39,030 nt of DNA from Methanospirillum stamsii. GTDB taxonomy: Archaea; Halobacteriota; Methanomicrobia; Methanomicrobiales; Methanospirillaceae. The notes beneath the pieces were generated by a model, which saw only the letters and a list, made by a program, of their open reading frames with translations, had not been told where the DNA came from and did not search any database. A program made the translations under genes and the position numbers. Of this stretch, positions 3,143 to 25,291 are shown in pieces. Positions within the stretch are counted from its first letter, which is position 1. Each line of letters begins with the position of its first letter. The stretch covers positions 1 through 39,030 of the forward strand of contig NZ_QGMZ01000035.1 of assembly GCF_003173335.1 (NCBI RefSeq). Reading direction: 5' to 3'.

Positions 3143-3694
3143 TTATAAACTGGAGTAATATGCTTCTCCGGAACAGCTTTTACAGAGTATGAGCTCCCCT
3201 TTTTGTATATCTCTGCCATCCATAATTTGTTCTTTGCACTTGGAGCATGTAACAGACCTTGAAGGAAATCCGGGCATATCTTCCGGAGGAATCTGAACTG
3301 AAACCTCCTGGATCCGGATTATCTGTTCTTCTGGTGCATTCAGGATCATATCACGAAGTTCATTCATATCCGTAGGCTGATCCTCTTTTTTAGGAAGTTG
3401 TGAAACGCGGACGGCTTTCCCATTCTGTGTATCAACAAATGTAGCAGCAAATTTCCCAAAATTTAGAACCTTTAATGTCCGGTGCCCGAGTGAACACCCG
3501 GTAATTGCCTGGATTGCATCTGTTGCACACCTGTCTATCTCAACGTAAACGATAAGGTTTTGGTTTTTCTCTAAAGGGTTCATACCGAGTTCTCTCATCG
3601 CAGCTATAGTCATCCTGGTTCCGGTAGCAATCCCCGGACAGATATCTCCATGGAACTGTTTTGCCTTCTCTAAAAGGGTAGTAATTGCGTTCAT
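3143..3694 (-). CDS. fmdE: FmdE-family protein with C-terminal zinc ribbon
   Basis: Member of the FmdE family, named from the molybdenum formylmethanofuran dehydrogenase operon of methanogens; its biochemical role is not established. The 183-residue protein carries the family signature FHGDICPG (His15, Cys19) near the N-terminus. A conserved middle region includes VEIDRCATDA and ITGCSLGHRTL, with Cys56 and Cys67. The C-terminal zinc ribbon has CSKC (150, 153) and CKSC (171, 174). This is the usual domain order and length. A DUF364 remnant lies 69 bp downstream on the same strand, so the two may once have formed an operon. The fwd operon is about 18 kb away. A role in metal handling or insertion is inference. 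Confidence 0.85.
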   Translation of the reverse strand: MNAITTLLEKAKQFHGDICPGIATGTRMTIAAMRELGMNPLEKNQNLIVYVEIDRCATDAIQAITGCSLGHRTLKVLNFGKFAATFVDTQNGKAVRVSQLPKKEDQPTDMNELRDMILNAPEEQIIRIQEVSVQIPPEDMPGFPSRSVTCSKCKEQIMDGRDIQKGELILCKSCSGEAYYSSL

Positions 3695-4637: not shown

Positions 4638-5567
4638 ATGGTTGGACCGAATAATAAATTTGGAATGGGGTGGTTACATGATTACCCCGATTTCAGGGAT
4701 TATACGCCGGATTATGATAAAATCTCTCCTACTCGAAAAGCACTAGGACAGAAAGATTCCATAAAATCCATGTTATCTCAAGTAGGTTTGGAGAACCTAG
4801 CTAAGAAAAAAATGGAAAATTCTGTTGATTTACGTCAATGGTTTCCTCCTGTGGAGAATCAGGAGGATATTGGATCGTGTACAGCACATGCCGGCGTTGG
4901 AATGTTAGAATATTTTGAAAAAAGGGCCTTTGGGAAGCACATTGATGCATCCAGACTTTTTCTCTATAAAGTTACGAGAAACCTGTTACAATTAACCGGA
5001 GACACGGGAGCATATCTTCGAAGCACGATGGGTGCATTAACACTATTCGGAGTTCCTCCTGAAAAATTCTGGCCATATAATGTTGAAGATTATGAAAAGG
5101 AACCTTCAGCATTTTGTTATGCATATGCCCAGAATTATCAGGCCATAAATTATTACCGATTAGATTCGTCCCGGATTGCAGGAGAAGAACTCCTGAGAAG
5201 GATAAAAGCCAATCTCTCTGCCGGACTCCCGATAATGTTTGGATTTACCGTGTATAGTTCGTATCAGCAATCTAATCAAGCGGGTGAAAATATCGGAAAA
5301 ATACCATATCCGGCGTTTGGAGAAGATGTGGTTGGTGGCCACGCAGTCATTGCTGCAGGTTATGATGACAACATGAAAATAAAAAATAAAAACGTGTATT
5401 CCAAAGAAACAACCGGAGCAATTCTCATCCGGAATTCTTGGAGTGAAGAATGGGGAGAAAAAGGGTATGGCTGGTTACCCTATGATTATATCCTAAATGG
5501 TCTTGCTGATGACTGGTGGTCAATATTAAAGAACGAATGGGTTGATTCAGGTCAGTTCGGAGAATGA
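4638..5567 (+). CDS. Papain-family (C1A) cysteine peptidase
   Basis: Predicted cysteine peptidase of family C1, probably cytoplasmic because no signal peptide or membrane segment is present. The catalytic set is complete in the 309-residue protein: Gln75 and Cys81 in VENQEDIGSCTAHA, His235 in VVGGHAVIAAGYDD, and Asn266 in LIRNSWSEEWGEKGYGW. Residues 1-62 are a short charged N-terminal region that might act as a propeptide, with a DYPDFRDYTP motif seen in other prokaryotic C1 proteins. GAGG lies about ten bases before the ATG. Papain-type peptidases are not common in methanogens and no inhibitor or partner gene is recognisable nearby, so the physiological target is unknown. Confidence 0.85.
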   Translation: MVGPNNKFGMGWLHDYPDFRDYTPDYDKISPTRKALGQKDSIKSMLSQVGLENLAKKKMENSVDLRQWFPPVENQEDIGSCTAHAGVGMLEYFEKRAFGKHIDASRLFLYKVTRNLLQLTGDTGAYLRSTMGALTLFGVPPEKFWPYNVEDYEKEPSAFCYAYAQNYQAINYYRLDSSRIAGEELLRRIKANLSAGLPIMFGFTVYSSYQQSNQAGENIGKIPYPAFGEDVVGGHAVIAAGYDDNMKIKNKNVYSKETTGAILIRNSWSEEWGEKGYGWLPYDYILNGLADDWWSILKNEWVDSGQFGE

Positions 5568-5678: not shown

Positions 5679-6725
5679 TTATGATGATGAAGGTTTATTC
5701 AGAACAACTTTACTCTTGTCCTGAAGAAGGTTCTTGACATCCTCGTCTGAAAGTTCAATCCGATAGAATTTCTTGTAAAAGTCCTGAATTTCTTTTGCAA
5801 GATCAAAGGTAACCGCATCCGGATAAACCATACTCTGCAGCCACATCGTTCCAAGGATTGATTCCGGAACCGGAAGTTCCCAGCTCATAAGGTACTTTGG
5901 CATCTGGTAAACCTGCTTTTCCTGGACTGCCGGAAGGGATTCCCATGCAGAATCAGATAAAATATCTTCAACATTTGCTGAATTATACGGGAGGAGAATT
6001 ACTACAGATGGATCCCAATTATAAACCTGGTCGATGGTTACAGTGTTATCTCCACCGGATAATCCCTGTGCTACATTTGCTGAACCGATGATACGTGCAA
6101 TTTCTGCTTCATAATAATCATCACCCAGTGTCTGGAGAGGGGACCTCTGACCAAAGTAAATAGTCTTTTTATCAGTGTCGGTGATCGAATCTCCGGTTTC
6201 CTGGATGGATTTCATCTTCTGATTGTAATAATCAATGAATTCCTGTGCTTCTTCTTCTTTACCAAAGACTTTTCCGATTATATCATAACTTTTTGCAAGG
6301 TTATCTGCCTGTTCAAGATCAATTTTTACTATTGGAATACCCACTCTTTCGATATCATCGTTGATCTTGGTATAGTCAACAGAAGAAATCACAACCTCCG
6401 GCTCAAGTTTCATTAATTCTTCAAGGTTTACATTAGTTTTACAACCAGCTGAAGGTAATGCACCAAGTCTTTTTTGTGTTTTATTGACCAACTCGCGGTT
6501 TGCCGGTCCGATACAGGTTGCAACCAGGCGGTCATCTGCCCCGATGACATAAATAAACTGGCTGGAGAAAGGATCAACGGTAACAACCCTGCTCACATCA
6601 GCAGGTATCTGAACATCAGTTCCGGTAATGTCAGTAATCGTAATTTCTTCGGCTACTGCACATCCTGTCAGCAATACGATTCCTGTCAGAAGGATACAAC
6701 ATACATGAATCAGAGATAATTTCAT
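5679..6725 (-). CDS. Class III ABC transporter binding lipoprotein (BtuF/FecB/MolA type), copy 1
   Basis: Extracytoplasmic binding protein of an ABC importer for a metal chelate, cobalamin or oxyanion. A signal peptide of about 20 residues ends in the lipobox LLTGC (Cys22 from the start used here). The N-lobe begins with TDITGTDVQIPADVSRVVTV and contains LGALPSAGCKTNVNLEELMKLEPEVVI, the class III pattern. A long linker helix with FGKEEEAQEFIDYYNQKM is followed by the C-lobe ending SWELPVPESILGTMWLQSMV. I use ATG 6725 rather than GTG 6731 because GGTG sits about seven bases ahead of it. No permease is adjacent; the nearest is at 16.8-17.9 kb. It is a paralogue of the three binding proteins at 10.5-14.1 kb but is diverged from them. 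Confidence 0.85.
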   Translation of the reverse strand: MKLSLIHVCCILLTGIVLLTGCAVAEEITITDITGTDVQIPADVSRVVTVDPFSSQFIYVIGADDRLVATCIGPANRELVNKTQKRLGALPSAGCKTNVNLEELMKLEPEVVISSVDYTKINDDIERVGIPIVKIDLEQADNLAKSYDIIGKVFGKEEEAQEFIDYYNQKMKSIQETGDSITDTDKKTIYFGQRSPLQTLGDDYYEAEIARIIGSANVAQGLSGGDNTVTIDQVYNWDPSVVILLPYNSANVEDILSDSAWESLPAVQEKQVYQMPKYLMSWELPVPESILGTMWLQSMVYPDAVTFDLAKEIQDFYKKFYRIELSDEDVKNLLQDKSKVVLNKPSSS

Positions 6726-6794
6726 ACACACACCATTTAGTGATCTTATGATCTGAGTATGTTATGTTAACTTGAACTTAAGAAATTACCTAAT

Positions 6795-7371: not shown

Positions 7372-7977
7372 TTAACAGGTTTTTGATGCTTCTATTGCAG
7401 CCTTGAGGGCATCCTCAGACACACCAAGTGTTTTTGCTGCATCTGCAAAGTGTCCACCGTCACCAGGTGTTCCCATTACTGCATTTAATGCTTCTTCAGA
7501 AACACCTAAGTTTGCGGCTATTGCTGCATTATCTGGTCTTTCACCTGGCTGACCGTTCCCTTGTTCACCCATTGCTGCTTTCAGTGCATCCTCGGCAACA
7601 CCAAGCGTATTTGCCATTGCAGCAAAATCTCTTTCCGGCTGCTCTTTCATACCCATTGCTGCCTTAAGAGCGTCTTCAGTGACACTAAGAGTCTTTGCAG
7701 CTGATGCAAAGTCCATTCCCTTCTCACCACTGCCCATTGCTGCCTTAAGAGCATCTTCAGTAACACCAAGAGTTTTTGCAGCTGATGCAAAATCAGGTCC
7801 CGGATGAATTGCAGACTTGAGAGCATCTTCAGTAACACCAAGTGTTGCTGCGGCCTTTGCATAATCAGTACAGTCCTGTGGTGGCTGACCCTGTGGAGCC
7901 TGGTCTGCTGCATATACTCCACTGACAAGGAGAGCAAACAAACTAATGATTCCTAATATTTTGATGATTGATTTCAT
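7372..7977 (-). CDS. Secreted protein of six ~30-residue helical repeats
   Basis: Unknown exported protein. Residues 1-23 are a signal peptide (MKSIIKILGIISLFALLVSG, cleavage likely after VYA). The rest of the ~201 residues is six copies of a motif of the form DFASAAKTLGVTEDALKAAMG, separated by Gly/Pro/Gln-rich linkers of 4-20 residues. Each copy looks like a small helix-turn-helix unit. Only two cysteines follow the signal region, one before the first repeat (QDCTDY) and one as the last residue, so a disulfide could close the array. The frame continues 13 codons further upstream, but ATG 7977 fits the signal peptide; a TATA-like TTTTTTAAATAG lies near 8037-8048. No anchor or sorting signal is visible at the C-terminus. 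The function is not known to me. Confidence 0.75.
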   Translation of the reverse strand: MKSIIKILGIISLFALLVSGVYAADQAPQGQPPQDCTDYAKAAATLGVTEDALKSAIHPGPDFASAAKTLGVTEDALKAAMGSGEKGMDFASAAKTLSVTEDALKAAMGMKEQPERDFAAMANTLGVAEDALKAAMGEQGNGQPGERPDNAAIAANLGVSEEALNAVMGTPGDGGHFADAAKTLGVSEDALKAAIEASKTC

Positions 7978-8089
7978 GATATCTATTCCCTTACAATAGC
8001 GATCTTCAGAGAACAACAGATGTTGAACAGAACGCTATTTAAAAAATGATAGTCCGGTTGGTTGGAATGGACAACCAAATGGTTTGATG

Positions 8090-9838
8090 TTAACGGGCAG
8101 AAGCCTTGATAAACGATCGGGTAGGATGGATTTTTTCAAATGGGACTCCATAAAAACGCCGGTAAAAACGATCTGCTTCAGATGTGACATCCCATGAGCA
8201 TCTGTCCGGATGAAAAGATTTTGCAAGGAGCATAAGTCCCAGTATCCACCGTGGACTGCCAAAATCCCACGATGCAGGCATCTCCAGAATATTTTTCTTT
8301 TCGATAGCCGGAACAATCAGGTCGTTTTTGAGACAATACGCAAGACATGCATCTTTCGGAAGTGAGAACAGTCCAGATATACAGATCCAGTCAGGGTTTA
8401 CCGCATAAAATTCTTCGGAAGTGATATTTACTCCCGGTTTTCCGGTTCTGGGGATCATCCGGTTTACCGGATTTCCTCCTGCTGTTTCCACCAAATGATT
8501 CTCAAATCTCCCACCATTCAGTGAAAAAACCGGATAACCCATGGTATAAAGCACCCTTGGGCGTGCGGCCCCTGAAACAGCAGTGGTAACCCTGGCAGTC
8601 ATCTCTTTGAGAACCGCGGTTAATTCTTCTCCGGTCTCTTTCCGGTCTACGATTCCAGCCACCTCATCTATGATACCATAATACGAAGAAATCTTCTGGA
8701 TCCGGTCATGAATGGAACTAATACCGCCTTCTGCAAGGAAGGACCTCCAGAGTCTCGGGGCACATGATGGATCATCCACACCAAGACAGGAAACGATCCC
8801 CTGAATAAATTCAAGCGCCCTCGTTGGTCTGTACCCTCCATCCATCCCTTCTTCTTCGAACCGCTCAGAAGATACTATCCCTGCTATCGGCAGATGATAT
8901 CCACATGAACACATGTTTGTATGGGAAAATGATACAGGTCTGCATCCCATCGGACCATACATCTCCCGTTTTGCAAGTACCCTGCCACAATCCGGGCAGG
9001 TTGTATCCAGACAGGAGGTTCCGGGTGAATTGAGGAGATAAACATGAGGGGTGAATTCATGAATCCTGGCACATAAGTGTTCTGATTCAGGAATAGAAGG
9101 CTCGTATTCCTGTCCCAGGTCACCAAAAGCCATGCATCTCATGATCTGAATGGGTATCCGGTCAGATATAGAAACAACTTCCTTTGCCTGTTGAATCAGG
9201 TCATTATCAAAACCTGTGGCATGCATGAGGGCTACTTCAACATGAACTCCTGCTGCCACGAGTTTTTTGATATTTTCCATGACTATCCGATTATTTACAA
9301 TACCGCACTCTCTCAGATTTCCCGGATTGATACCTTTCAATCCAATATTTACCATATCCAGAACCGGAAGCAGAAGGTTCAGGGTATAGTCAGAAAAGTA
9401 TCCATTTGATGAACATGCAACAAACAGTCCCTTTTCTTTTGCAAGTTTTGCTACCCGGAGAAAAGACGGGAGAGATACCGTTGGCTCATTCAGACAAAAG
9501 ACAATTCCCAGGCATTCCTCTTCTTTTGCCTGTCTGATGAGCGTCTCTGCATCTATCTTTCGAAGACCTGTTCCTATTGCTTCAGGAGTTCGGGCAAGAA
9601 TTTCTGAAACGCATCCCGGACAGGAAAGATTACAACCAACTGTGCTGATCTGAAGGGCTTTTGCCTTTGGCCATCCATGAACAAAAGGAATGGTTTCTAC
9701 AGAGACCGAGGTTACTACAAGCCAATGGTCCGGATATCTCTCTACTATCTCATTATTGGATGAAGAATACATGGCACATCTGCCTGTACTTCCTTCTGAA
9801 ATGTCACAATGATGCGGACAATAGAGACACTTTGTCAT
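8090..9838 (-). CDS. Radical SAM enzyme fused to a class III binding-protein lobe
   Basis: A 582-residue two-part protein without signal peptide, so cytoplasmic. Residues 1-270 are a radical SAM domain of the COG1180 (PflA/AmmeMemoRadiSam-like) type: an N-terminal cysteine set (Cys4, 7, 11, 21 in CLYCPHHC and GRC), then the cluster motif VGCNLSCPGC (Cys69, 73, 76) and LNEPT at 116-120. Residues ~275-320 hold more cysteines (CPDCGRVL, CSCGYH), probably a metal site. From ~385 the sequence follows the linker helix and C-lobe of class III ABC binding proteins: RPRVLYTMGYPVF, GGNPVNRM, VNPDWICISGLF, SWDFGSPRWILGLMLLAKSFHP, FYRRFYGV. The gene starts inside the stop of the upstream methyltransferase gene (ATGA overlap), so the two are translationally coupled and follow binding-protein gene 2. 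The reaction is unknown; the fusion suggests the enzyme senses or modifies the ligand of the transport system. Confidence 0.8.
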   Translation of the reverse strand: MTKCLYCPHHCDISEGSTGRCAMYSSSNNEIVERYPDHWLVVTSVSVETIPFVHGWPKAKALQISTVGCNLSCPGCVSEILARTPEAIGTGLRKIDAETLIRQAKEEECLGIVFCLNEPTVSLPSFLRVAKLAKEKGLFVACSSNGYFSDYTLNLLLPVLDMVNIGLKGINPGNLRECGIVNNRIVMENIKKLVAAGVHVEVALMHATGFDNDLIQQAKEVVSISDRIPIQIMRCMAFGDLGQEYEPSIPESEHLCARIHEFTPHVYLLNSPGTSCLDTTCPDCGRVLAKREMYGPMGCRPVSFSHTNMCSCGYHLPIAGIVSSERFEEEGMDGGYRPTRALEFIQGIVSCLGVDDPSCAPRLWRSFLAEGGISSIHDRIQKISSYYGIIDEVAGIVDRKETGEELTAVLKEMTARVTTAVSGAARPRVLYTMGYPVFSLNGGRFENHLVETAGGNPVNRMIPRTGKPGVNITSEEFYAVNPDWICISGLFSLPKDACLAYCLKNDLIVPAIEKKNILEMPASWDFGSPRWILGLMLLAKSFHPDRCSWDVTSEADRFYRRFYGVPFEKIHPTRSFIKASAR

Positions 9839-10493: not shown

Positions 10494-11588
10494 TCATTTG
10501 TATTCAGGAACTCTTTTTAATAGTCCGTCAAGCTCTGTAGATGTCAGGGTTACATCGTAAAACGATTCATAAAACTCTGACACTTTTTCCCGAAGTTGGT
10601 CGGTTGTGTATTTTTCAGGATACAGGGTGTGAAGCATCCAGTATAGTCCAGGAATCTGGTTGGTTCCCGGTGGCCGGTCAAACCAGGAAAATGGTGCAGC
10701 AGGTACTGCATATACTTTCTCTGACTTTACTGCAGGAATATCCTGCCAGAGGGGATCGTCAAGGACTGATGATGCAAATGATGAATCACTGGCTATGATA
10801 ACATCTGGTTTCCAGGTCATAACCTGTTCAAGAGAAATCGGCGTCATACCATATCCGGGAGTGATGGTCGTTTCTGCAACATTTTTGCCCCCACAATAAT
10901 CAATTAGAAGTGAGTGTTGTGATCCGCTCGGGTCGGTTGCAAGGCCATCTGGTCCTTCAGCATAAAATACCCTCACTTTTTCTGCATCCGGGATGGTTGA
11001 TACGGTCTCTTCTACAGTTTTGAGAGCCTCTTTATAATAGGCGTTCAGGGCATTTGCCCGTTCTTCTTTTCCAAGGACTGAACCAATAAAGGTAATTGGT
11101 CCGGAATATTTGGATATGTTAGCGGTATCCTGAACAGTTACAAGCGGAATATCACCAAACCGTACCTGTCGCTCTTCAACCTCATCGACATTTTTCGGAT
11201 CTCCGGTAATAGTACGTCCTTCAAAGATGATATCCGGATTCAGGTTGATGAATGTTTCATAATTTCCATCAGTTTTTCCAAACCATCCTCCAACCACCGG
11301 CAGGTTTTGATACTGCTCCGGCATGTACATCATGTTCAGGTCAGTGGGTTTGGAATTCCACGCTGCAAGAAGTTCAGGAGCCACCAGGTACAATGTCATG
11401 GTAGTCGGTGGGGCGGTGCTGACAACACTGGTTATTTCTGTCGGTATTGAAAGTTCTCTACCAAGATCATCGGATATTACGTGGTCAGAAGAGACAGTGT
11501 CTGCATACATTGGTGAAATACACAGAATACTTGCGATTATTGCAATGAATGCAATTATTAATCCTTTATTAGTCATGCCTTTCCTCAT
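10494..11588 (-). CDS. Class III ABC transporter binding protein, copy 2
   Basis: Extracytoplasmic binding protein of the BtuF/FecB/MolA fold, 364 residues. The N-terminal hydrophobic segment (GLIIAFIAIIASILCI) ends near MYADT; there is no clear lipobox, so it may be a cleaved signal or a membrane anchor. The N-lobe starts with VISDDLGRELSIPTEITSVV and the C-lobe contains PFSWFDRPPGTNQIPGLYWM, which matches FWWDRPSPES in copies 3 and 4. The first ATG is 11588; ATG 11576 is also possible, since AGGAAAGG lies directly before it. It is the first gene of the operon with the methyltransferase and the radical SAM fusion, and is divergent from copy 3. Its substrate could be a metal chelate, cobalamin-like compound, molybdate or tungstate; the family covers all of these. 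Confidence 0.83.
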   Translation of the reverse strand: MRKGMTNKGLIIAFIAIIASILCISPMYADTVSSDHVISDDLGRELSIPTEITSVVSTAPPTTMTLYLVAPELLAAWNSKPTDLNMMYMPEQYQNLPVVGGWFGKTDGNYETFINLNPDIIFEGRTITGDPKNVDEVEERQVRFGDIPLVTVQDTANISKYSGPITFIGSVLGKEERANALNAYYKEALKTVEETVSTIPDAEKVRVFYAEGPDGLATDPSGSQHSLLIDYCGGKNVAETTITPGYGMTPISLEQVMTWKPDVIIASDSSFASSVLDDPLWQDIPAVKSEKVYAVPAAPFSWFDRPPGTNQIPGLYWMLHTLYPEKYTTDQLREKVSEFYESFYDVTLTSTELDGLLKRVPEYK

Positions 11589-11834
11589 CTTAAGTTACTG
11601 GTTTTAGTAAACTTAGTTATGAGGTACATTTTATTAATTAAAAAAAGATACTATTTAGATCTGGTTAGATACTTCTCGTTTCCCATCTTATTCGGCTGAA
11701 ATTTTGGATAATTTCAAAGATGATAAGAATTAGCATACTCATTATAGTTAATAAAATTAAAAGATAAATAACTTTATTTGTAAACCGCGATAATCAACAG
11801 GAATGATAATTACTATCTTCCTGAAGTGAATCAT
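11589..11834. promoter_or_regulatory. Divergent promoter region between binding-protein genes 2 and 3
   Basis: About 240 bp of AT-rich DNA. TTAGATC (11655-11661) and TTAGATA (11665-11671) resemble the arm of the inverted repeat at 6816-6824. AGTTAATAAAATTAAAAGATAAATAAC near 11747-11773 is TATA-like for the plus-strand gene. GTGAATC at 11826-11832 resembles the GTGATC part of the archaeal ribosome binding site and favours ATG 11835 for copy 3. Confidence 0.4.
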
Positions 11835-12881
11835 ATGCAAAAGAATGTATATTCTCTTATTCTGGTTATATTCCTCATTTTGGGGTGTATGAGTATCTGC
11901 CCGGTAAGTGGGGAGACGGTATCAACAAAGATCATCACCGATATGGGTGGAAATGATGTTACGATCCCGGCCGATGTACAGCGTATTATCATTACCTGTT
12001 ATGGTGGGGCTACACAGGAAGTTGCAGTAATGGATGGTGAAAGTAAGGTAATCGCTCAACCTCCCCAGAGTTTCCCGGCTTTTCTAAAGATGTATCCGGA
12101 TCTCACAAATGTTCCAGATGTAGGGAAATTTGATGAACTCAATATTGAATCCATTATGGAACTCAATCCTGATGTTGTGATAAACAGTGTAACTGCATCT
12201 AAAGGTAATGCAAAACTTAAGGAAAATTCGATACCGGTAATTCAGGTTTATACAGGGAAGGCGAATTTAAGCAATATCTATAATGAATTCAGAATGATGG
12301 GAGATCTTCTCAATGAACCGGTCAGGGCGGAACATCTCATTTCGTATTGGGATGAGAAAAAGGCATTATTAAACGAAAGAATCAGTAAAATCCCAAAAGA
12401 TAAGAAAAAAACGGTCTATTACATGCTCGGAAGTCCCTTACATACAAATGGTGAGAAGTGGTGGGGAGATTCCTTTGTTACCATTGCCGGAGGCATTAAT
12501 GTTGCTGCTGATATTGGTGATGTCAGAGATATCAATGCAGAACAACTTGCACAGTGGGATCCGGACGTAATCGTGGTAAGTGCCAATGAAGGTTCATACG
12601 TATCTGATGAGACTATCAATAGTGATCCACAACTTGCAGGTTTAAAAGCGATTAAAAATGGAGAAGTGTATCACATTCCGATTGGTGGATTCTGGTGGGA
12701 CCGGCCTTCTCCGGAAAGCCCACTCGGATTCTTATGGCTTGCAAAGACCCTTTATCCGGAAACATTTAGCGATATCGATATGGTAAAAGAAACAAAAGAA
12801 TTTTTCAGTGATTTTTATGGTGTAGAATTATCTGATGATGAGATCAGTGAGATACTTGAAGCAAAAAACCCTGCATTCTGA
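11835..12881 (+). CDS. Class III ABC transporter binding protein, copy 3
   Basis: Extracytoplasmic binding protein, about 348 residues. The signal sequence (YSLILVIFLILGC) contains a possible lipobox ILGC. The N-lobe begins TDMGGNDVTIPADVQRIIITCYGG, and the C-lobe carries GGFWWDRPSPESPLGFLWLA. It is strongly similar along its length to copy 4 downstream: both have FDELNIE or FDDLNME, LNPDVVINSVTASKGNAK or LKPDVVINSVTASKGNAK, and VQAYTGKA-like segments. A recent tandem duplication followed by divergence is likely. The frame extends to a GTG at 11826, but ATG 11835 with GTGAATC upstream is preferred. It ends about 120-170 bp before copy 4, with AT-rich DNA between, so copy 4 may have its own promoter. 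Confidence 0.85.
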   Translation: MQKNVYSLILVIFLILGCMSICPVSGETVSTKIITDMGGNDVTIPADVQRIIITCYGGATQEVAVMDGESKVIAQPPQSFPAFLKMYPDLTNVPDVGKFDELNIESIMELNPDVVINSVTASKGNAKLKENSIPVIQVYTGKANLSNIYNEFRMMGDLLNEPVRAEHLISYWDEKKALLNERISKIPKDKKKTVYYMLGSPLHTNGEKWWGDSFVTIAGGINVAADIGDVRDINAEQLAQWDPDVIVVSANEGSYVSDETINSDPQLAGLKAIKNGEVYHIPIGGFWWDRPSPESPLGFLWLAKTLYPETFSDIDMVKETKEFFSDFYGVELSDDEISEILEAKNPAF

Positions 12882-13053
12882 ATCCGGTATATTCAATTTT
12901 TTTTACTTTTTTATGTATGTATTATATGACCAACATTCGCTCATAATAGATCAGATATACTTTCTATCGTTAATTAAATGAATAAGTTAATTAGATAGTG
13001 TGTTAATTTTGTACAAACAGGATGAGCCTAAAGTTCATCCGGATGTGGTATGT

Positions 13054-14082
13054 ATGAATATGAAATCTTATTCTACTATTTTGTTACTTTTCCTTTTTAT
13101 TGGATTAATCACATTTACTCAAGTAGCTGGCGATGCAACGACACGGACACTCACCGATATGGGTGGCAATGAAATAACTATTCCAACAGATATTGAGCGA
13201 ATTGTAGTTGCCTGCCAGGGCGGAGTGGCTCAGGAAATTGTCATAATGGGCAGTCCGAAAACGGTGGTAACAATGTCATCAATGAACATGTTTCCTATGT
13301 TCGTAAAGATGTACCCGAATTTTAAGGATTTACCAAATGCAGGAAGTTTTGATGACCTTAATATGGAAACCATTCTCAAATTAAAACCTGACGTGGTAAT
13401 TAACAGTGTTACGGCATCAAAAGGAAATGCGAAAATTACAGAAAATGATATTCCTGTTTTTCAGGCGTATACCGGAAAGGCTTCAGCTGATACAATTTAC
13501 AATGAATTCAGGGCTTTTGGAGAATTATTTAACAATCAGGTAAAAGCCGAAGAACTCATCTCCTACTGGGACGAAAAGAAGAATTTTATCAATGATAGGA
13601 TGAAGTCCATTCCTGAAGATGAGAGAAAGACCGTCTTTTATACCTCAAACAAGGATTTGGGAACTGATACCAATTGGGGCGTCTCGTATGTTGCAACATC
13701 CGGAGGAATTAATGTTGCCAAAAACCTGGGAGATGCAAAAGTCAATCCGGAAAAACTCGCTGAATGGGATCCGGATGTAATCATTATCAGGGGTAATACA
13801 GACGGTACCTATCCGGACCAGGAAATTATTAGCAATCCACAGTTATCTGGTCTTTCTGCAATAAAGAATGGTGAGATCTATAATGTACCTATGGGTGGTT
13901 TCTGGTGGGACCGACCATCTCCGGAAAGTGCACTTGGATTTTTATGGCTTGCAAAGATTCTCTATCCTGATACATTCAAGGACGTTGATATGGTGGGTGA
14001 GATGAAATCTTTCTTTAAGAATTTCTACCGGTATTCCCTCTCTGATGAAGAGGCCAACGAAATTCTATCGGTGAATAATTGA
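13054..14082 (+). CDS. Class III ABC transporter binding protein, copy 4
   Basis: Close paralogue of the preceding gene. The frame opens at 13000, but the signal peptide (MKSYSTILLLFLFIGLITF) shows that translation begins at ATG 13054 or 13060; GGATGTGG lies ahead of both. The N-lobe begins TDMGGNEITIPTDIERIVVACQGG and the C-lobe has GGFWWDRPSPESALGFLWLAK. No lipobox cysteine is present, unlike copy 3. Copies 3 and 4 differ around the predicted cleft (YMLGSPLHTNGEKWWGDSF against YTSNKDLGTDTNWGVSY), so their ligands may differ. It is followed after 10 bp by an O-methyltransferase-type gene and then a DUF364 gene, forming one plus-strand operon. Confidence 0.85.
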   Translation: MNMKSYSTILLLFLFIGLITFTQVAGDATTRTLTDMGGNEITIPTDIERIVVACQGGVAQEIVIMGSPKTVVTMSSMNMFPMFVKMYPNFKDLPNAGSFDDLNMETILKLKPDVVINSVTASKGNAKITENDIPVFQAYTGKASADTIYNEFRAFGELFNNQVKAEELISYWDEKKNFINDRMKSIPEDERKTVFYTSNKDLGTDTNWGVSYVATSGGINVAKNLGDAKVNPEKLAEWDPDVIIIRGNTDGTYPDQEIISNPQLSGLSAIKNGEIYNVPMGGFWWDRPSPESALGFLWLAKILYPDTFKDVDMVGEMKSFFKNFYRYSLSDEEANEILSVNN

Positions 14083-14092
14083 GGCGTGTATA

Positions 14093-15130
14093 ATGGAAAA
14101 TTCCCAAAATACCCTCATATCTTCACTTCAGTTTCCTGATGGTTTTCAGGAGATTGAAACAAATATTTCCGGGTATAAACGGCATATGATCCTTACCAGT
14201 GCCCTGAAAATGGGACTTTTTGATCATCTTGAAAAATGTGGAGTTTCATCCAGGGAGGAGATTGTTTCCTCTCTTCCCCTGTGTGGAATGCTGAGCCGAA
14301 GTTACCTGAATGCACTCGTGTCCATGAATCTCCTGGTAGTAGAAGGAGAAAAGTATCAAAACAGCCAGATTTGCCGGGATTTTTTAACGAAGAAAAGTCC
14401 GTATTACCAAGGGGATCTGATTCTTGGCAATTCAAAATCCGGATCACGATGGGATCTTCTCTCTGAAGCAATGCAGAGCAGTGATGGAATGGCTAAATCA
14501 TCCGGACCTGGGCCATCTATCGACCATCTTAATACTCTTGCCCAGCGGGTAATTCAGGGAGAAGCCCAGGCACTCACTACATGGATATCCGAACTCCCGG
14601 GATTTTCCGAAATGAAAAAAATGCTGGATATTGGAGGAGGACACGGGCTGTATACAATCGGCATCTGCCAGATGAATCCTGATATAAAAGGAGTTATCCT
14701 GGACCAGCCCCATGTTACCGATCTCACAAAAATGTATATCCAAAAATATGACATGGAAAGGAGAATCCTGTCAAAACCCGGAGATATCAAAACAGAAGTC
14801 TACAAACCCGAGTATGACATAATTCTTATATCCCATCTTCTGTATAAGTTCAGAAATGACCTTGATGAGATATTCAGGCTGGTAAGTGGAGGCCTAACAG
14901 AAAATGGCATTCTTGTTTCCAATCACTGGTTCTGCTCTCCGGGATGTCTCCCTTCACAGGATCCGGTAAATGAACTTGAACGTTCGCTCCAGAGTGCTGG
15001 TCATCCTCTCTGTCATCCGGAACATTTTGCGGAATTATTTAAAAAATATGGACTCACCTGTATCAGAACAGGAACCATTGAAACTGCCAATGGCTCATCC
15101 ATGCTCCATGCAGCACAAAGGGGAAAATAA
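14093..15130 (+). CDS. O-methyltransferase-type SAM protein, copy 1
   Basis: 345-residue protein with the layout of dimeric plant/microbial O-methyltransferases: an N-terminal winged-helix dimerisation region (residues ~25-105, with ALKMGLFDHLEK and SRSYLNALVSMNLLVVEGEKY) and a C-terminal Rossmann methyltransferase domain. Motif I is MLDIGGGHGLYT (177-188), followed by VILDQP, DIILISHLLYKF and VSNHWF. The acceptor is unknown. GAGG about nine bases before the ATG supports the start. Its stop overlaps the start of the DUF364 gene (TAATG), which implies coupled translation. A diverged paralogue, sharing YYQGD, GGHGLY and SNHWF, lies at 20287-21315 inside the fwd region. Linkage of both copies to metal or fwd genes suggests a role in a metal ligand or cofactor pathway. 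Confidence 0.82.
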   Translation: MENSQNTLISSLQFPDGFQEIETNISGYKRHMILTSALKMGLFDHLEKCGVSSREEIVSSLPLCGMLSRSYLNALVSMNLLVVEGEKYQNSQICRDFLTKKSPYYQGDLILGNSKSGSRWDLLSEAMQSSDGMAKSSGPGPSIDHLNTLAQRVIQGEAQALTTWISELPGFSEMKKMLDIGGGHGLYTIGICQMNPDIKGVILDQPHVTDLTKMYIQKYDMERRILSKPGDIKTEVYKPEYDIILISHLLYKFRNDLDEIFRLVSGGLTENGILVSNHWFCSPGCLPSQDPVNELERSLQSAGHPLCHPEHFAELFKKYGLTCIRTGTIETANGSSMLHAAQRGK

Positions 15131-16038
15131 TGAGTAGTGAATCCCAGTTCTCTCAGGGAGAAAAGTCATTTGATTTTTATTCTGCAGAAAATGACCGGTA
15201 CCAGGGAGGTATCATTCTCCAGGAGACAAAAGACCGTTTAATCGAAAGATATGGAGAAAAATTAGATAACCTTACCTTAAAGCGGGTAGTAATTGGAATT
15301 TTCTACACCGGTGTCCTGTTGTCTGATGGTTCATCAGGTATCTGTTTTACTCCTATCAAGGCGATTCCGGAATCAGTTTGCTGTCCTTCATCTGCACGTG
15401 CAATGCCACGGGCTGGAAAACTGAGAGGGATGAAGGTAACTGATATTTTTCAGTATCTGACACAACCGGCTCCCATTAAACGTGCAATTGCTATTGCAAC
15501 CCTGAATGCCCTTTCAGACAGGATTTGGCGGAACAATCCTGATGAAGGTGCAGGCAAATACCGGATTGAGGAAGGAGACGATATCTTTTCGATAGTTGAC
15601 TTACAGTCAATTAAAAAGGCCGTAGTCGTCGGAGCCTTAATTCCGGTGATTAAATCGTTTAAAGAAAAACAGATCCCATACCGGATTGCTGAACTGGATA
15701 TCCGGACGTTAAAAGAAGAAGAACTCCCTTTCTTTGTAAGCCAGGAGGATCTCCCCGGAGAACTTGCATCTGCCGACATGGTCATTATATCCGGAACAAC
15801 CCTCCTAAATGATACCCTGGAGAGTATTCTTTTTACATGCAGTCCGGCAGCAAACATTATGCTCATTGGTCCGACTGCAACCATGCTTCCGGAGAGTTTT
15901 TTCTCAAGAAAAGTTACTGTCCTTGCAGGAAACCGGGTAGTCGCACCTGATAAAGTATTAGATGTCCTTATCGAAGGCGGATCCGGTTATCATTTCTATG
16001 GTGATTCGTCAAGAAAAGTAATGATAATAAAAGAGTGA
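15130..16038 (+). CDS. DUF364 family protein (putative heavy-metal chelation)
   Basis: 302-residue protein of the DUF364 family with the DUF4213-type N-terminal region. The family was proposed from structure to bind heavy metals; its reaction is not established. Visible features are an N-terminal domain with GIFYTGVLLSDGSSGICFTP and the cysteine segment ESVCCPSSARAMPRAGKL, and a Rossmann-like C-terminal domain (VVVGALIPVI, DMVIISGTTLLNDT, IMLIGPTATMLPESFF) ending GGSGYHFYGDSSRKVMIIKE. The ATG overlaps the methyltransferase stop codon. It is the last gene of the operon binding protein 4 - methyltransferase - DUF364. A remnant of a second DUF364 gene lies next to fmdE at 2904-3074. No signal peptide, so it acts in the cytoplasm, presumably on the imported metal species. 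Confidence 0.82.
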   Translation: MSSESQFSQGEKSFDFYSAENDRYQGGIILQETKDRLIERYGEKLDNLTLKRVVIGIFYTGVLLSDGSSGICFTPIKAIPESVCCPSSARAMPRAGKLRGMKVTDIFQYLTQPAPIKRAIAIATLNALSDRIWRNNPDEGAGKYRIEEGDDIFSIVDLQSIKKAVVVGALIPVIKSFKEKQIPYRIAELDIRTLKEEELPFFVSQEDLPGELASADMVIISGTTLLNDTLESILFTCSPAANIMLIGPTATMLPESFFSRKVTVLAGNRVVAPDKVLDVLIEGGSGYHFYGDSSRKVMIIKE

Positions 16039-16046
16039 ACCCAAAA

Positions 16047-16063
16047 ATCCCTTTTTTAGGGAT
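16047..16063. terminator. Hairpin shared by two convergent operons
   Basis: ATCCCT-TTTTT-AGGGAT is a 6-bp stem with a T5 loop, located between the DUF364 stop and overlapping the last codons of the ATPase gene on the other strand. It may terminate both transcripts. There is no long T-run after the stem, so the call rests on position and symmetry. Confidence 0.35.
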
Positions 16064-16835
16064 AAGAAGGCACACATACATTTCTATTAGCTTGTTTGAT
16101 GAAATGAACACCGATGGATATCTGGTAAGTATCTTCAAGTGTCTCTTCTGTTACTACTTCTTCAGCCTGCCCGACCAGTGATACAAAGCCGTTTTTCATA
16201 ATGCCTGCCTGACAGGAAAGCAGAAATGTATGATCGGGATAATGGGTTGACATGATAATGGAGATGTTTCGTTCCTTTGCCAGTTTATCAAGGATATGAA
16301 GGATTTTTACCTGGTTTCCGAAATCAAGATGGTTTGTTGGTTCATCCAGGATTAAAATTGATGGTTCCTGGGTAAGCGCCCGGGCAATCATGGCCAACTG
16401 GCATTCACCCCCACTAATCCGATTTACCGGGGCATCTTTAAGGTGCTCAATACCGACACTCTGAAGCGATTGTTCAGCAATTTCGACATCTCTTTTTCCC
16501 GGACGTGAATAAGGAGAAATGTGCGGATTTCGTCCCAGCAGGACAAGTTGGAGAACAGAAAAAGGAAATACAATGTTATGTGCCTGTGGAACATATCCTA
16601 TTTTTTGAGCCAGTTCCCTGCGTGTCCAATGTTCAATCGCTTTTCCATCAATGCAAACCTCACCTGTCCGAACTGGAAGAATTTTTGCGCAACATTTGAG
16701 AAGTGTTGATTTACCTATACCATTCGGACCTAAAATACACAGGACTTTACCTTTCTGAAGAGAAAAAGTAACGTTCCCGAATATTACACGTTCTGGATTG
16801 TACCAGAACCCAGCATTTTTAATTGAAAACATCAT
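16056..16835 (-). CDS. FecE/BtuD-type ABC transporter ATPase
   Basis: ATP-binding subunit of an importer for metal chelates, cobalamin or oxyanions. About 259 residues, a normal length for the family. Walker A is GPNGIGKSTLL (near residue 36), the Q-loop is GYVPQAHNI, the signature is ISGGECQLAMIARAL, Walker B is ILILDEPTNHLD, and the H-loop is MSTHYPDH, all intact. The frame opens at GTG 16841, but ATG 16835 overlaps the permease stop as ATGA and has GGGTGG upstream, so it is preferred. With the permease it forms a two-gene minus-strand operon, opposite to the plus-strand operon of binding protein 4, methyltransferase and DUF364. Confidence 0.9.
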   Translation of the reverse strand: MMFSIKNAGFWYNPERVIFGNVTFSLQKGKVLCILGPNGIGKSTLLKCCAKILPVRTGEVCIDGKAIEHWTRRELAQKIGYVPQAHNIVFPFSVLQLVLLGRNPHISPYSRPGKRDVEIAEQSLQSVGIEHLKDAPVNRISGGECQLAMIARALTQEPSILILDEPTNHLDFGNQVKILHILDKLAKERNISIIMSTHYPDHTFLLSCQAGIMKNGFVSLVGQAEEVVTEETLEDTYQISIGVHFIKQANRNVCVPSYP

Positions 16836-17875
16836 GTCCACCCAACATCACGTCTTGCCATAATGTATGCAAAAAAGGGAACCCCGACAATAGCAGTCAG
16901 GATTCCCAGAGGAATTTCTGCAGTTGTGGCATTCCTGGCAATGTTATCTATAAGAATAAGATAAGCCGCTCCAAGAAAGAATGAGACCGGGATGAGACAT
17001 GCATTGTCCGGCCCGACCAGCATCCTTCCAAGATGTGGGATAACTAGGCCAATCCAGCCAATTATCCCGCAGATACAAACAGAATACGCAGTAATCATCG
17101 TTGAGATGAGAATTAGGATGTATTTCATTCTCCGGGTATCAACTCCAAGAGCTCCTGCCTCTTCATCACCAAGTGAAAATACATTGAGCCGCCATCCAAT
17201 CAGAATGCAATACGCAACTCCCGGGATGATGAACACTCCTGCAAGAAGGATATCCGGCATTGTTACTGCGCTCAGGGATCCCATCAGCCAGTAGGTGATT
17301 GCCGGGAGTTTCGATGTAGGATCAGCCACGAATTTCACCAAAGAAATAAGAGAGGTAAAAAGAGAACTCATGATAATTCCGGATAGAACCAGAACCAGAA
17401 TTGATTCTCCCTTGTATATTCTTGAAAGGGTAATAGCAAATCCCACCGATAAGAGCCCAAAAAAAAAGGCAGATGCTTCTATGAGGAGAAGCGGCAATGA
17501 AAAGAGAATTGCAATGGCTGCACCAAATCCTGCTCCTGAAGATACTCCCAGGATGTCCGGAGACACCATCGGATTACGAAAAAGACTTTGATAGACCGCT
17601 CCTGCTACAGACAGGCCACCCCCGATTAAAAAAGCACCAAGAATCCGGGGGATCCGAATGTTGAAGATTACATTCGCCTGAGCCTCAGTCCACGTTGAAT
17701 CCGGGTGAAAAACCGGAGATAAGAGGATTGTGAAGACGGTAGCGGGATCAAGAGTATACTGTCCGATAAAAAGTGATACTAAGGAAAGAATGAAGGGAGA
17801 TAGGATGATGCATGCAATACCTGCCGTTAAACCATATTTATTCATCCCTTCGAAGCGCATCAATTCCATTACCAT
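16832..17875 (-). CDS. FecCD/BtuC-type ABC transporter permease
   Basis: Membrane subunit of a type II ABC importer, 347 residues with about ten membrane helices, as usual for FecCD proteins, working as a homodimer. Recognisable segments are RIPRILGAFLIGGGLSVAGA and NPMVSPDILGVSSGAGFGAA in the N-terminal half, and GIIGWIGLVIPHLGRMLVGP, the coupling-helix region that contacts the ATPase. Several in-frame ATG codons lie in the first eleven residues; ATG 17875, 17869 or 17845 are possible. It is the only importer permease in the window and could serve all four class III binding proteins. The MolBC and BtuCD importers share this fold, so the substrate may be an oxyanion, a corrinoid or a chelate. 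Confidence 0.9.
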   Translation of the reverse strand: MVMELMRFEGMNKYGLTAGIACIILSPFILSLVSLFIGQYTLDPATVFTILLSPVFHPDSTWTEAQANVIFNIRIPRILGAFLIGGGLSVAGAVYQSLFRNPMVSPDILGVSSGAGFGAAIAILFSLPLLLIEASAFFFGLLSVGFAITLSRIYKGESILVLVLSGIIMSSLFTSLISLVKFVADPTSKLPAITYWLMGSLSAVTMPDILLAGVFIIPGVAYCILIGWRLNVFSLGDEEAGALGVDTRRMKYILILISTMITAYSVCICGIIGWIGLVIPHLGRMLVGPDNACLIPVSFFLGAAYLILIDNIARNATTAEIPLGILTAIVGVPFFAYIMARRDVGWT

Positions 17876-18136: not shown

Positions 18137-19516
18137 TTATGGCCCTGCAGGAATTATTTTTTTATGGGAGTTGGTAATTGAAAACCCGATTTTCTCCTGT
18201 GCCAATATCTCTTCAACCTTGTTTGCAATACCCGATAACACCTCTTCATCTGAGAGCATTCCCTCCGGCATATCCACCACTTTCCTATACTGGATTGGAA
18301 CATTATCCATCCGGTACACAATCCCCGGAACTTCTACTCCGGAAATTCCAACAGGAATATGGAGATCTGCAATCTCTGCAGCCATACTCATATTTGGATC
18401 GATAGTTATCCAGGTATGTTTTTTCAGGTGCCTGACGGTATCAATTGGGAAATGGGCAGCAGCATCGGTCCCGATATTAATGAACAGATCAATTTCGTCA
18501 CGGTTCGCAAGGTCAATTGTACTGGTCTCTCCTGGATTCATGTGAGCACAGTTACCCTTGGTTAGATCGAGGCAATAGGGGAATCCATATGACCAGCACC
18601 AGACACGGTTCGCTCCTGCGACATTAAAATGACCCCGCATAGCCATAATAGACCATTTAGATATTTGGTTTAAATCCCGGGTAAGAGAGATTGCAATGTC
18701 AATATTGTGATTTCTTCCGTCAGTATGAGTAAGTCCCATCCCGAAAAAAAACACTCCGAATTTTGCTTGTTTTAAAATTCCCGCAACTTCAAGGATGGTC
18801 TGTTTTGGAATTCCTGCAACCATCTCCGGGAGTTCTTTTTCAAATCCATATATGACCATCCGGAAAGCATTGAAAAGTTCATAATCATGTCCAGGCTTAA
18901 CCTGAAGGTAATAATCTGCAATTCCCGCGGTATCTGTGTTCCGTGGGTCGACAACAATCACCGTCCGTTCAAAAAACCCGTTTCCTTTGAAAAAACCCAG
19001 GGGATAGATTGCATATCGTGACATATGTCTTGGATGGGCATGGATAGGATTTGCACCCCAGTACAGAATAACATCTGCCCGGTTTTTCACTTCTCCAAGG
19101 GTGCAACTAGGATATCCGTTATCAAAATGAGCGATTAATGAAGGGCCATGACAAATCGATGCACAATTGTCAAGAATGCCACAACCAAGTTCCATGAGTC
19201 GTGCAGCTTCCCGTTGTGCTTCACAGGTTGTTGATCCGAATCCATAGATAAGTGGTTTTTTTGCTGCAACGATTGCTTTCGCTGCATAATCAAACGCTTC
19301 AGGGTAAGAGATCTCCTTCCATGATCCATCTGACTGGCGAAGTCTTGGCCGTGTTATCCGGTCGGAACTGGTTGCCTGCAAAAAAATTTCTGTGCCGATT
19401 GCACAGGCATTTTCTACTTCGAGGATCTTCTTTCCGTCATCAGATACTACAACCTTGATATCATCACATGAGCAGCCACAATACGGACACCCGATTCCTT
19501 CAAGAATTTTTGGCAT
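18137..19516 (-). CDS. fwdB: Formylmethanofuran dehydrogenase subunit B, second copy
   Basis: Catalytic W/Mo-pterin subunit of formylmethanofuran dehydrogenase, which interconverts CO2 and methanofuran with formylmethanofuran in the first step of methanogenesis. The [4Fe-4S] site is GCPYCGCSCDD (Cys10, 13, 17) with Cys38, and the metal-ligand cysteine is Cys98 in GFGSTTCEAQ, so it is a cysteine and not a selenocysteine enzyme. The pterin-binding regions CASICHGPS and DVILYWGANPIHAHPRHMSRY are intact. The frame opens at 19537, but ATG 19516 has GGGAGG eight bases upstream and matches the other FwdB start. It overlaps the second fwdD by 17 bp. It is clearly diverged from the copy at 23964-25289 and has a longer C-terminus. 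Whether this is the Mo (Fmd) or W (Fwd) isoform cannot be read. Confidence 0.9.
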   Translation of the reverse strand: MPKILEGIGCPYCGCSCDDIKVVVSDDGKKILEVENACAIGTEIFLQATSSDRITRPRLRQSDGSWKEISYPEAFDYAAKAIVAAKKPLIYGFGSTTCEAQREAARLMELGCGILDNCASICHGPSLIAHFDNGYPSCTLGEVKNRADVILYWGANPIHAHPRHMSRYAIYPLGFFKGNGFFERTVIVVDPRNTDTAGIADYYLQVKPGHDYELFNAFRMVIYGFEKELPEMVAGIPKQTILEVAGILKQAKFGVFFFGMGLTHTDGRNHNIDIAISLTRDLNQISKWSIMAMRGHFNVAGANRVWCWSYGFPYCLDLTKGNCAHMNPGETSTIDLANRDEIDLFINIGTDAAAHFPIDTVRHLKKHTWITIDPNMSMAAEIADLHIPVGISGVEVPGIVYRMDNVPIQYRKVVDMPEGMLSDEEVLSGIANKVEEILAQEKIGFSITNSHKKIIPAGP

Positions 19517-19925
19517 CTGTAAATCCTCCCATGCCAACAGCCTGAAAAATCAGTTCTCTCGCACTGCGGACCTTCTCATTCGGAGCAGGAAAAATACACA
19601 CAGGAAAACCACTGTACTGAGGAACACCGGTTGATTGCGTTCTACCCGGAACAATCTGGTTAGCCCAGACACCCTGCCTGATATGACAGATTCCCGGACT
19701 TAATGTCTGAATGCCATAAATAGCCTTCACAATAACCTCACCACACTCACTTCTGACCCTGACCGGGGTATTCTCTTCTATGCCCATACGAAGCATATCA
19801 AGTTCATTCATCTCGATAACGCTACAGGCATTGAAATATTCCCTGGAATTTTTACCTTTTTCCATGGCAATGCCTTCTTCTATTGACCTTTGGGTTATCA
19901 TGGTCAGGGTCTGTTTTTGTGTCAT
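19500..19925 (-). CDS. fwdD: Formylmethanofuran dehydrogenase subunit D, second copy
   Basis: Molybdopterin-dinucleotide-binding subunit, 141 residues, the C-terminal-like domain that in other molybdoenzymes is fused to the catalytic chain. It contains TMITQRSIEEGIAMEKGK, the beta-barrel core VRVRSECGEVIVKAIYG, and the pterin-binding segment IRQGVWANQIVPGRTQSTG followed by PQYSGFPV. GTGAGGAACC lies before the ATG. It is coupled to the second fwdB. The 46-bp gap to the small upstream gene on the same strand is compatible with one transcript including the methyltransferase and the small protein. Confidence 0.88.
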   Translation of the reverse strand: MTQKQTLTMITQRSIEEGIAMEKGKNSREYFNACSVIEMNELDMLRMGIEENTPVRVRSECGEVIVKAIYGIQTLSPGICHIRQGVWANQIVPGRTQSTGVPQYSGFPVCIFPAPNEKVRSARELIFQAVGMGGFTDAKNS

Positions 19926-19971
19926 GCAGGTTCCTCACAATTTCTATCGGGTAAGGAAGTGATTATCGGAG

Positions 19972-20244
19972 TTATTCTCCAATGAGTTCTATCGCTAGTT
20001 CATAGGGATTTCTCGGACGTTCACTTCCGGGTTTATTCGTGAAAAAGGTATCCGGATGAATTTTTTTCATATCTTCGATACTAAGTTTATTAACTATATC
20101 TCTGACAACCTCATCTGCATCTTTGGATTTTCCGGGAAATTTCAGGATATATCCCATCTTGATATGCATGAGCATTGCTTCCCGGAGTTCATCGTCAGTG
20201 AGCCGGTCGAAGGGAGTAAATTTCAGGATTTCAGGTCTTCCCAT
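19972..20244 (-). CDS. Small unknown protein in the fwd region (90 residues)
   Basis: I do not recognise the family. The frame opens at 20277, but ATG 20244 has AGAAGGT six bases upstream and is preferred. The protein is highly charged and probably helical: FDRLTDDELREAMLMHIKMG, DADEVVRDIVNKLSIEDM, ending NPYELAIELIGE. It has no cysteines, no signal peptide and no membrane segment. It lies 42 bp after the methyltransferase copy 2 and 46 bp before the second fwdD on the same strand, so it is probably co-transcribed. A chaperone or assembly role for the dehydrogenase or its cofactor is possible, based only on position. Confidence 0.65.
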   Translation of the reverse strand: MGRPEILKFTPFDRLTDDELREAMLMHIKMGYILKFPGKSKDADEVVRDIVNKLSIEDMKKIHPDTFFTNKPGSERPRNPYELAIELIGE

Positions 20245-20286
20245 TGATGTACCTTCTCTTGTATTCTCTCTCAGCACAAGAAATAA

Positions 20287-21315
20287 TTATTCCACCTTTC
20301 TCTCTGCCATATGAATGGTTGATTGCCCGTATGAAGATCTGGTTATCCCAATCTGAAGTAATTTCAGGTTATTTTTTTCATAAAGGGATTCAAACAGTTC
20401 CTTATCAGGGAGAAGGTGATACCGGTTATGCATGGCAAGTTCAAGTTCATATAGACCCTGCGATCCGGTTCCGCCTGTAGGTGCTGCAAACCAGTGATTT
20501 GAAAGGAACAGACCATCAGGATTCAAAACATATGCAATCCCTTTGAGGATTTCATCAAGATTTTCTTTATATGGATAAAGTGAGTGAGAAAGAAGAACAA
20601 TGTCAGATTTATCTCCCTTGTAAGAGAGAATATCTCCAGGAATTACCTTAATTCTCTCATTCATTCCAAATTTTGAGATGTTCTCTTCTGCAGGTCCGGT
20701 GTCCAATGAACCACAAAGCACCACTGCGCTTAATTCAGGATTATTCTGACAGGCTGCAATTGCATAGAGTCCATGTCCACCATTCATTTCGATTAAGGTT
20801 CTGGCATTAGAAAACTGTGGCCATGACATGAGAGTTTTTGTGACATTCTGAACGGTTCCCCGGAGATCATGGTTGGCTCTGCCCCTGACTGATTCTGTGG
20901 ATACAGGATCAAAGGTATTTTTTTCATCCGGTTTTGTCAAGAATGTCTCTATATCCTGCCAGGGCGATTCATCATTCGGGAGATTTAAAATGTAGTCGCC
21001 CTGGTAATACATGCTTGTCCGGATAAAATTAAGCCCGGCTGCCGGAGAAATGTAATAAGAATCCTCCTTTCTTCTCACCATATCCAGGTAATAAAGCATG
21101 GAAAGAAGACTTGGCATATATTCCGGTTTAATTCCTGTACCTTCTGCAATTTGTTCAGGGGTGGAGGGACCGTTTTCCGAAAGCCATGTAAACAGATCAA
21201 TCTTTAAAGCCGCCCGAATAACCATGAATTCTTTGTAGACCTGAACCAGGTCATCTACAATTTCTATAACCGGTAGTTCCGGGATTTTCAGAATATCTTG
21301 TGTCTCATTGATCAT
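20287..21315 (-). CDS. O-methyltransferase-type SAM protein, copy 2
   Basis: 342-residue paralogue of the protein at 14093-15130, with the same winged-helix dimerisation region (ALKIDLFTWLSENGPSTPEQ, MPSLLSMLYYLDMVRR) and a Rossmann methyltransferase domain. Motif I reads IEMNGGHGLYAI (175-186), with Glu in place of the usual Asp before the glycines, followed by VVLCGS, DIVLLSHSLYPY and LSNHWFAAP. Strand-2 VVLCGS lacks the acidic residue that normally binds the SAM ribose, so cofactor binding may be altered. It lies 118 bp downstream of fwdC and upstream of the small protein and the second fwdD-B pair, all on one strand. Position suggests work on the dehydrogenase, its cofactor, or a metal ligand; the substrate is unknown. 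Confidence 0.8.
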   Translation of the reverse strand: MINETQDILKIPELPVIEIVDDLVQVYKEFMVIRAALKIDLFTWLSENGPSTPEQIAEGTGIKPEYMPSLLSMLYYLDMVRRKEDSYYISPAAGLNFIRTSMYYQGDYILNLPNDESPWQDIETFLTKPDEKNTFDPVSTESVRGRANHDLRGTVQNVTKTLMSWPQFSNARTLIEMNGGHGLYAIAACQNNPELSAVVLCGSLDTGPAEENISKFGMNERIKVIPGDILSYKGDKSDIVLLSHSLYPYKENLDEILKGIAYVLNPDGLFLSNHWFAAPTGGTGSQGLYELELAMHNRYHLLPDKELFESLYEKNNLKLLQIGITRSSYGQSTIHMAERKVE

Positions 21316-21433
21316 GGATTATCACATAGTATACTTTTTTTCACAAAAAGTGAATGGAAATGCTCATTTACCTGCCTTAAAAACCTGCGTTAGAATATTA
21401 ATGGATGGCAGATACATTGAAAAGAAAAAGAGG

Positions 21434-22234: not shown

Positions 22235-22245
22235 TTTTATTCCCC

Positions 22246-23961: not shown

Positions 23962-23963
23962 TT

Positions 23964-25289: not shown

Positions 25290-25291
25290 AA

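Follow-up and report, generated by a model that had tools for sequence, protein, structure and literature searches.

The window analyzed here is the whole 39,030-nucleotide stretch of Methanospirillum stamsii DNA, one entire contig (NZ_QGMZ01000035.1) of a 3.74-Mb genome. On its minus strand lies a gene that joins a radical SAM domain to part of an ABC importer binding protein, among genes for methyltransferases, binding proteins, and a permease-ATPase pair (Table 1). The frame begins with ATG, contains no internal stops, and shares 4 bp (ATGA) with the end of the methyltransferase gene upstream of it. The original prediction had placed a radical SAM enzyme and the C-lobe of a class III binding protein in this single reading frame, and Pfam, the predicted fold, and the homologues all agree with it. 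Pfam finds Radical_SAM (PF04055) at residues 65-204 (7.7e-12; 46.1 bits against a cut-off of 29.5) and Peripla_BP_2 at residues 384-522 (4.3e-7; 30.0 bits against 27.5), the second match spanning profile positions 93-233 of 235 and thus the C-lobe only.

Table 1. Fusion gene, its parts, and neighboring genes in the window
Feature	Position	Strand	Basis or remark
Radical SAM/C-lobe fusion gene	8090-9838	-	582 aa; open frame, Pfam, full-length relatives
AmmeMemoRadiSam-like radical SAM domain, residues 1-320	8879-9838	-	Invariant cysteines; PFL-activase fold
Helices overlaying part of binding-protein N-lobe, about residues 338-387	8678-8827	-	Predicted structure
Linker helices and C-lobe of class III binding protein, about residues 388-571	8126-8677	-	Pfam, hhalign, structure
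Class I SAM-dependent methyltransferase, 217 aa	9835-10488	-	Methyltransf_11 3.7e-23
Cognate extracellular class III binding protein, MolA-like branch	10494-11588	-	Peripla_BP_2 2.1e-21
FecCD/BtuC-type permease	16832-17875	-	FecCD 3.1e-84; adjoins fusion in related operons
ABC ATPase, FecE/BtuD type	16056-16841	-	ABC_tran 5.6e-32
Further class III binding protein, downstream of fusion	5679-6731	-	Peripla_BP_2 8.1e-28
Class III binding protein, divergent	11826-12881	+	Peripla_BP_2 2e-32
Class III binding protein, divergent	13000-14082	+	Peripla_BP_2 2.6e-29
O-methyltransferase-like protein	14093-15130	+	Pfam
DUF4213/DUF364 "putative heavy-metal chelation" protein	15130-16038	+	Pfam

The same domain order recurs in other genomes. 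Since unbroken full-length copies are present in many independent genomes, misassembly and readthrough are both ruled out as its cause; three relatives (G045, G052, and G194) carry a stop or frameshift, and most are intact. The maximum 19-residue hydropathy within residues 1-60 is 0.9, whereas the median among the binding proteins is 2.5, in keeping with the predicted lack of a signal peptide and supporting a cytoplasmic location.

The N-terminal half is a radical SAM domain, as first read, with the correction that it is AmmeMemoRadiSam-like and carries three cysteine sets. The SAM-cluster motif is C69-X3-C73-X2-C76, with all three residues present in 52/52 fusions, and it is accompanied by an N-terminal set (C4/C7/C11/C21) and a C-terminal set (C281/C284/C310/C312). 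An alignment was made of 52 fusions, 15 same-order standalone AmmeMemo-type enzymes, and 4 closer standalone enzymes. The eleven cysteines are common to all three groups, being invariant in the fusions (52/52, with C310 at 50/52) and in the AmmeMemo-type enzymes (15/15). As all 11 cluster cysteines are kept, this half of the fusion should be active. Its predicted structure (residues 34-268) overlays that of PFL activase (3c8f; Z 16.5, rmsd 3.3, 220 residues).

The fusion shares with AmrS (TIGR04337) the order of the cysteine sets, the NEPT, K168, and N145 motifs, and 22-29% identity over residues 3-320. It differs from AmrS in adding a binding-protein lobe, sitting in importer operons, and forming a separate clade. 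Residues 3-301 score 72.5 bits against the AmmeMemoRadiSam model TIGR04337, for which the cut-off is 220, and this score together with the tree rejects membership in the equivalog. In the radical SAM tree the fusions form one clade (100/99) and the standalone AmmeMemo-type enzymes another, with a small set of standalone enzymes beside the fusions; long branches meet between the fusions and the AmmeMemo type, and the rooting is unsure.

The C-terminal part belongs with class III binding proteins by several comparisons. Its best PDB sequence match is 4hn9 (residues 394-565, 3.5e-10), and hhalign against the 63 binding proteins of these loci gives a probability of 100 and an E value of 2.6e-48. 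AlphaFold2 models were obtained for the whole fusion (pLDDT 77, pTM 0.77) and for residues 321-582 alone (pLDDT 80.7, pTM 0.83). Predicted residues 342-568 align with residues 79-354 of 4hn9 (Z 19.7-20.4, 217 of 227 residues, rmsd 2.4-2.5 Å), and the lobe also matches MolA (3psa; Z 17.6-17.7) and BtuF (Z about 14-15). As the input alignment for the 321-582 model contained the C-lobes of four window binding proteins, that model cannot count as independent evidence of homology; the whole-protein model, for which fusions alone were aligned, leads to the same class III structural match.

The prediction was to fall if the modeled structure of residues 385-582 did not match the class III fold; this was not borne out, the lobe corresponding most closely to 4hn9 (Z 20.4), followed by MolA (Z 17.6). 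The C-lobe and linker are present as proposed, while the start moves from residue 385 to near 338-342. Neither model has strands between 338 and 427, so that the N-lobe sheet is missing, and the joining segment (318-338) is modeled with low confidence. As modeled, the fused lobe keeps the C-lobe and linker and has lost most of the N-lobe. Class III binding proteins (MolA HI_1472 3psa, 4hn9, 4pag, and BtuF) share this C-lobe and linker fold. Whereas they have two lobes and an export signal, the fusion has no signal peptide and an N-lobe cut down to helices, and it differs further in its ligand-face residues; across the family, the docking glutamate also tends to be relaxed.

The docking glutamate, the C-lobe residue that contacts the permease, is E202 in BtuF, the numbering of which was checked on the known E72 and E202. 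At the corresponding column (position 475 of the fusion), an acidic residue is found in 30/52 fused lobes versus 63/63 neighboring binding proteins; the window fusion keeps E475, the loss being a family trend. On loops presumed, from the class III fold, to face the ligand, P436, N459, and R/K444 are invariant (each 52/52), C502 (51/52), W531 (50/52), and S488 (49/52) are kept in nearly all fusions, and G489 is also near-invariant. This pattern of seven positions is absent from the binding proteins. It suggests that the lobe has been retained by selection for some role, most simply ligand binding.

The 52 full-length fusions that were aligned come from Methanomicrobiales and Methanosarcinaceae. 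In the C-lobe tree, a long branch with full support (100/100) divides the group of fused lobes from that of the binding proteins, which suggests that the fusion is of old date and, on the simplest reading, had a single origin. A scan of genome contigs with the fusion returned close relatives only, the nearest records being Methanospirillum and Methanomicrobiales MAGs; in the bacterial plasmids scanned, separate halves were found and no full-length relative.

Gene order around the fusions ties them to methyltransferases and importers. A methyltransferase gene lies immediately upstream in 33/52 loci, often with the 4-bp overlap, and one of another kind immediately downstream in 5. Within 8 kb, a methyltransferase (any of three kinds) is present in 45/52 loci and a binding protein in 37/52. 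Methanosarcinaceae-like genomes, and one further genome, encode, on one strand, the binding protein, methyltransferase, fusion, FecCD permease, and ATPase, while a frequent order in Methanomicrobiales is binding protein, FecCD, ATPase, methyltransferase, and fusion. The automatic ATPase label takes in other ABC ATPases such as ModC, and the specific counts are those of permease and binding protein. The window has its permease and ATPase genes (16056-17875) on the fusion strand, 6 to 8 kb off, with four divergent genes between; the ATPase has NCBIfam matches of the F420-0/haem type, below cut-off. The importer is absent around some fusion paralogues (e.g., L051 and L093). Rfam gave no riboswitch or other regulatory match in seven loci, a tRNA being the sole hit, and riboswitch control of these loci was accordingly rejected. 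No convincing regulatory palindrome common to the window promoters was seen.

Other genes of the window were noted in passing. Formylmethanofuran dehydrogenase-like genes (molybdopterin, GXGXG, and amidohydrolase), FmdE, and ModA occupy 18137-25702, 3143-3694, and 190-993; as they flank the binding-protein cluster, the contig has the look of a Mo/W locus. Immediately beyond the downstream end of the fusion, 7372-8016 encodes a secreted-looking protein with about six ~20-residue repeats (AAKTLGVTEDALKAAM), and 4638-5567 reads like a papain-type (C1A) cysteine peptidase and has no NCBIfam match.

The operon binding protein, of the same family in most fusion loci, gives the best clue to the ligand. 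Its sequence matches are 4pag (8e-49), 4ovk, and MolA HI_1472 (1.1e-20), with haem and B12 binders far behind, and the order of nearest matches is similar for the binding protein of a Methanosarcina-like genome. MolA serves a type II importer and binds molybdate and tungstate (PMC4031551). Of 63 ModA genes, 11 are no more than 12 kb away from a family member, against 0.73 expected by chance; outside Methanospirillum there are 5 against 0.55 expected (Poisson 3e-4, with relatives that are not independent), and three of these five adjoin standalone enzymes. No such linkage is seen in Methanosarcinaceae or in several genera of Methanomicrobiales. Near fusions in several genera are modA, fmdE, or xdhC, DUF364 recurs too, and in Methanospirillum so do formylmethanofuran dehydrogenase-like genes. 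As the binding protein is MolA-like and modA, fmdE, or xdhC are nearby, our best guess for the ligand is a molybdenum or tungsten species. Since radical SAM enzymes carry out chemistry on organic groups, molybdate or tungstate by itself would be an unlikely substrate, and an organic ligand has to be assumed.

Inside the cell, the fusion probably takes hold of a metal complex that has been imported and alters it chemically. We tentatively put forward the fuller reading, in which it is a cytoplasmic radical SAM enzyme that modifies a metal complex delivered by the importer and held by the C-lobe. In such a scheme, the MolA-like binding protein would hand its cargo, a metal complex or oxyanion, to an importer of the BtuCD/MolBC type made up of the FecCD permease and ATPase. 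The fused C-lobe, possibly what is left of a duplicated binding protein after loss of the export signal and of most of the N-lobe, would hold the imported complex in the cytoplasm, with the other side of the site closed by the radical SAM half or by a partner, e.g., the co-translated methyltransferase. SAM-derived radical chemistry, with methyl transfer before or after, might then modify or open the organic part and make the metal usable. In this scheme, what is bound, how it reacts, how the site is closed, and what the methyltransferase does are all inferences. The original prediction had offered two readings, capture of a transported ligand as substrate and docking to a transport component; the importer operon and the near-invariant residues on the presumed ligand-face loops favor the former over the latter.

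A precedent for such coupling is ChuW, a radical SAM enzyme encoded in the haem-importer operon chuTWXYU-hmuV that acts in anaerobic breakdown of imported haem (PMC12670364). The fusion resembles ChuW/HutW anaerobilin synthases in that both are radical SAM enzymes of anaerobes whose genes accompany those of a class III importer. Whereas ChuW acts on imported haem, action of the fusion on an imported compound is an analogy drawn from the genes, and ChuW, unlike the fusion, is not known to have a binding-protein lobe. A bolder form of the capture reading, in which the radical SAM barrel replaces the N-lobe and clamps the metal complex against the SAM-bound cluster in an undescribed methanogen route for Mo or W, is doubtful.

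Among the alternatives, one that is unlikely has the enzyme and methyltransferase building a metallophore or modified cofactor for export and later uptake by the adjacent transporter, with the lobe holding the growing chelate. The Methanospirillum clusters, with their several methyltransferases, O-methyltransferase, DUF364 proteins, and up to five binding proteins, would suit such a pathway, but the loci showed no gene noticed as coding for an exporter or for scaffold building, and the Methanosarcinaceae operon, consisting of importer, methyltransferase, and fusion only, is thin for synthesis.

Slightly less likely still is that the lobe binds the imported ligand in order to sense it or to switch the enzyme on or off allosterically, the substrate being something else (a protein, tRNA, or cofactor precursor). 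Btr-type regulators sense a ligand in the cytoplasm with a class III domain joined to an AraC domain; the fusion is like them in having a class III domain inside the cell as part of a fusion, and differs in that its partner is an enzyme and one lobe is kept. The Btr model gives a weak match to a neighboring binding protein. Conservation of the presumed ligand-face residues in the fused lobes would also be expected of a sensor. However, nearly all type A loci encode the importer together with both methyltransferase and enzyme, as would suit a pathway that processes the imported compound, and the best-kept face residues are unlike those of the cognate binding proteins, as for a changed site rather than a copy.

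Rather improbable is that the ligand is a corrinoid or other tetrapyrrole instead of Mo or W, with the enzyme remodeling or opening a ring compound as ChuW does. Besides that precedent, the best NCBIfam match of the permease is BtuC (below cut-off) and methanogens depend on corrinoids, but the operon binding protein is far closer to 4pag and MolA than to BtuF or haem binders, and none of the seven loci searched with Rfam has a cobalamin riboswitch. Docking by the C-lobe to the transporter from the cytoplasm, which operon linkage would suit, is very improbable, and the lobe was probably not retained for contact with the permease, as the docking glutamate is relaxed across the family and belongs to a face that lies outside the cell.

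Both halves of the protein are of known kinds and, as far as the literature searched goes, their fusion and intracellular use are undescribed. A published description was not found, a weak negative as most subscription journals lay outside the search. Proteome reports on pyrite-grown methanogens list an iron-dicitrate-like binding protein (M. barkeri) and several radical SAM proteins (M. voltae), and no such fusion. Capture by the fused lobe, if true, would make a binding-protein lobe the substrate grip of a radical enzyme and show transport proteins turning into enzymes. Methanogens need Mo, W, Co, and Ni for methane formation, and the fusion and its methyltransferase offer a widely conserved, named gene pair for an undescribed step of methanogen metal acquisition. 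The cognate binding protein indicates which ligand to try first, and since Methanosarcina-like genomes carry the fusion and Methanosarcina is genetically tractable, the question is testable.

Several relatives depart from the arrangement in the window. The standalone enzymes closest to the fusions (L053:4253-10415, L054, L056, and L117, from G054, G049, G059, and G279; also L055, C1:80000-99000) adjoin FecCD and ATPase genes and a tandem double-Peripla_BP_2 binding protein (~760 aa). Beside them are also a PF09818 P-loop ATPase and a conserved protein of 389-438 aa that has no Pfam or NCBIfam match. A second fusion type, about 35% identical, occurs at L049, L052, L048, and L047, partnered, instead of by an importer, by another methyltransferase or by XdhC, DUF364, and an NTPase_1 gene. 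Finally, L025:826-1302 (G010:C37:23066-23542) is the remnant of a fourth fusion gene, its middle deleted, beside three intact paralogues, pointing to repeated duplication and loss.
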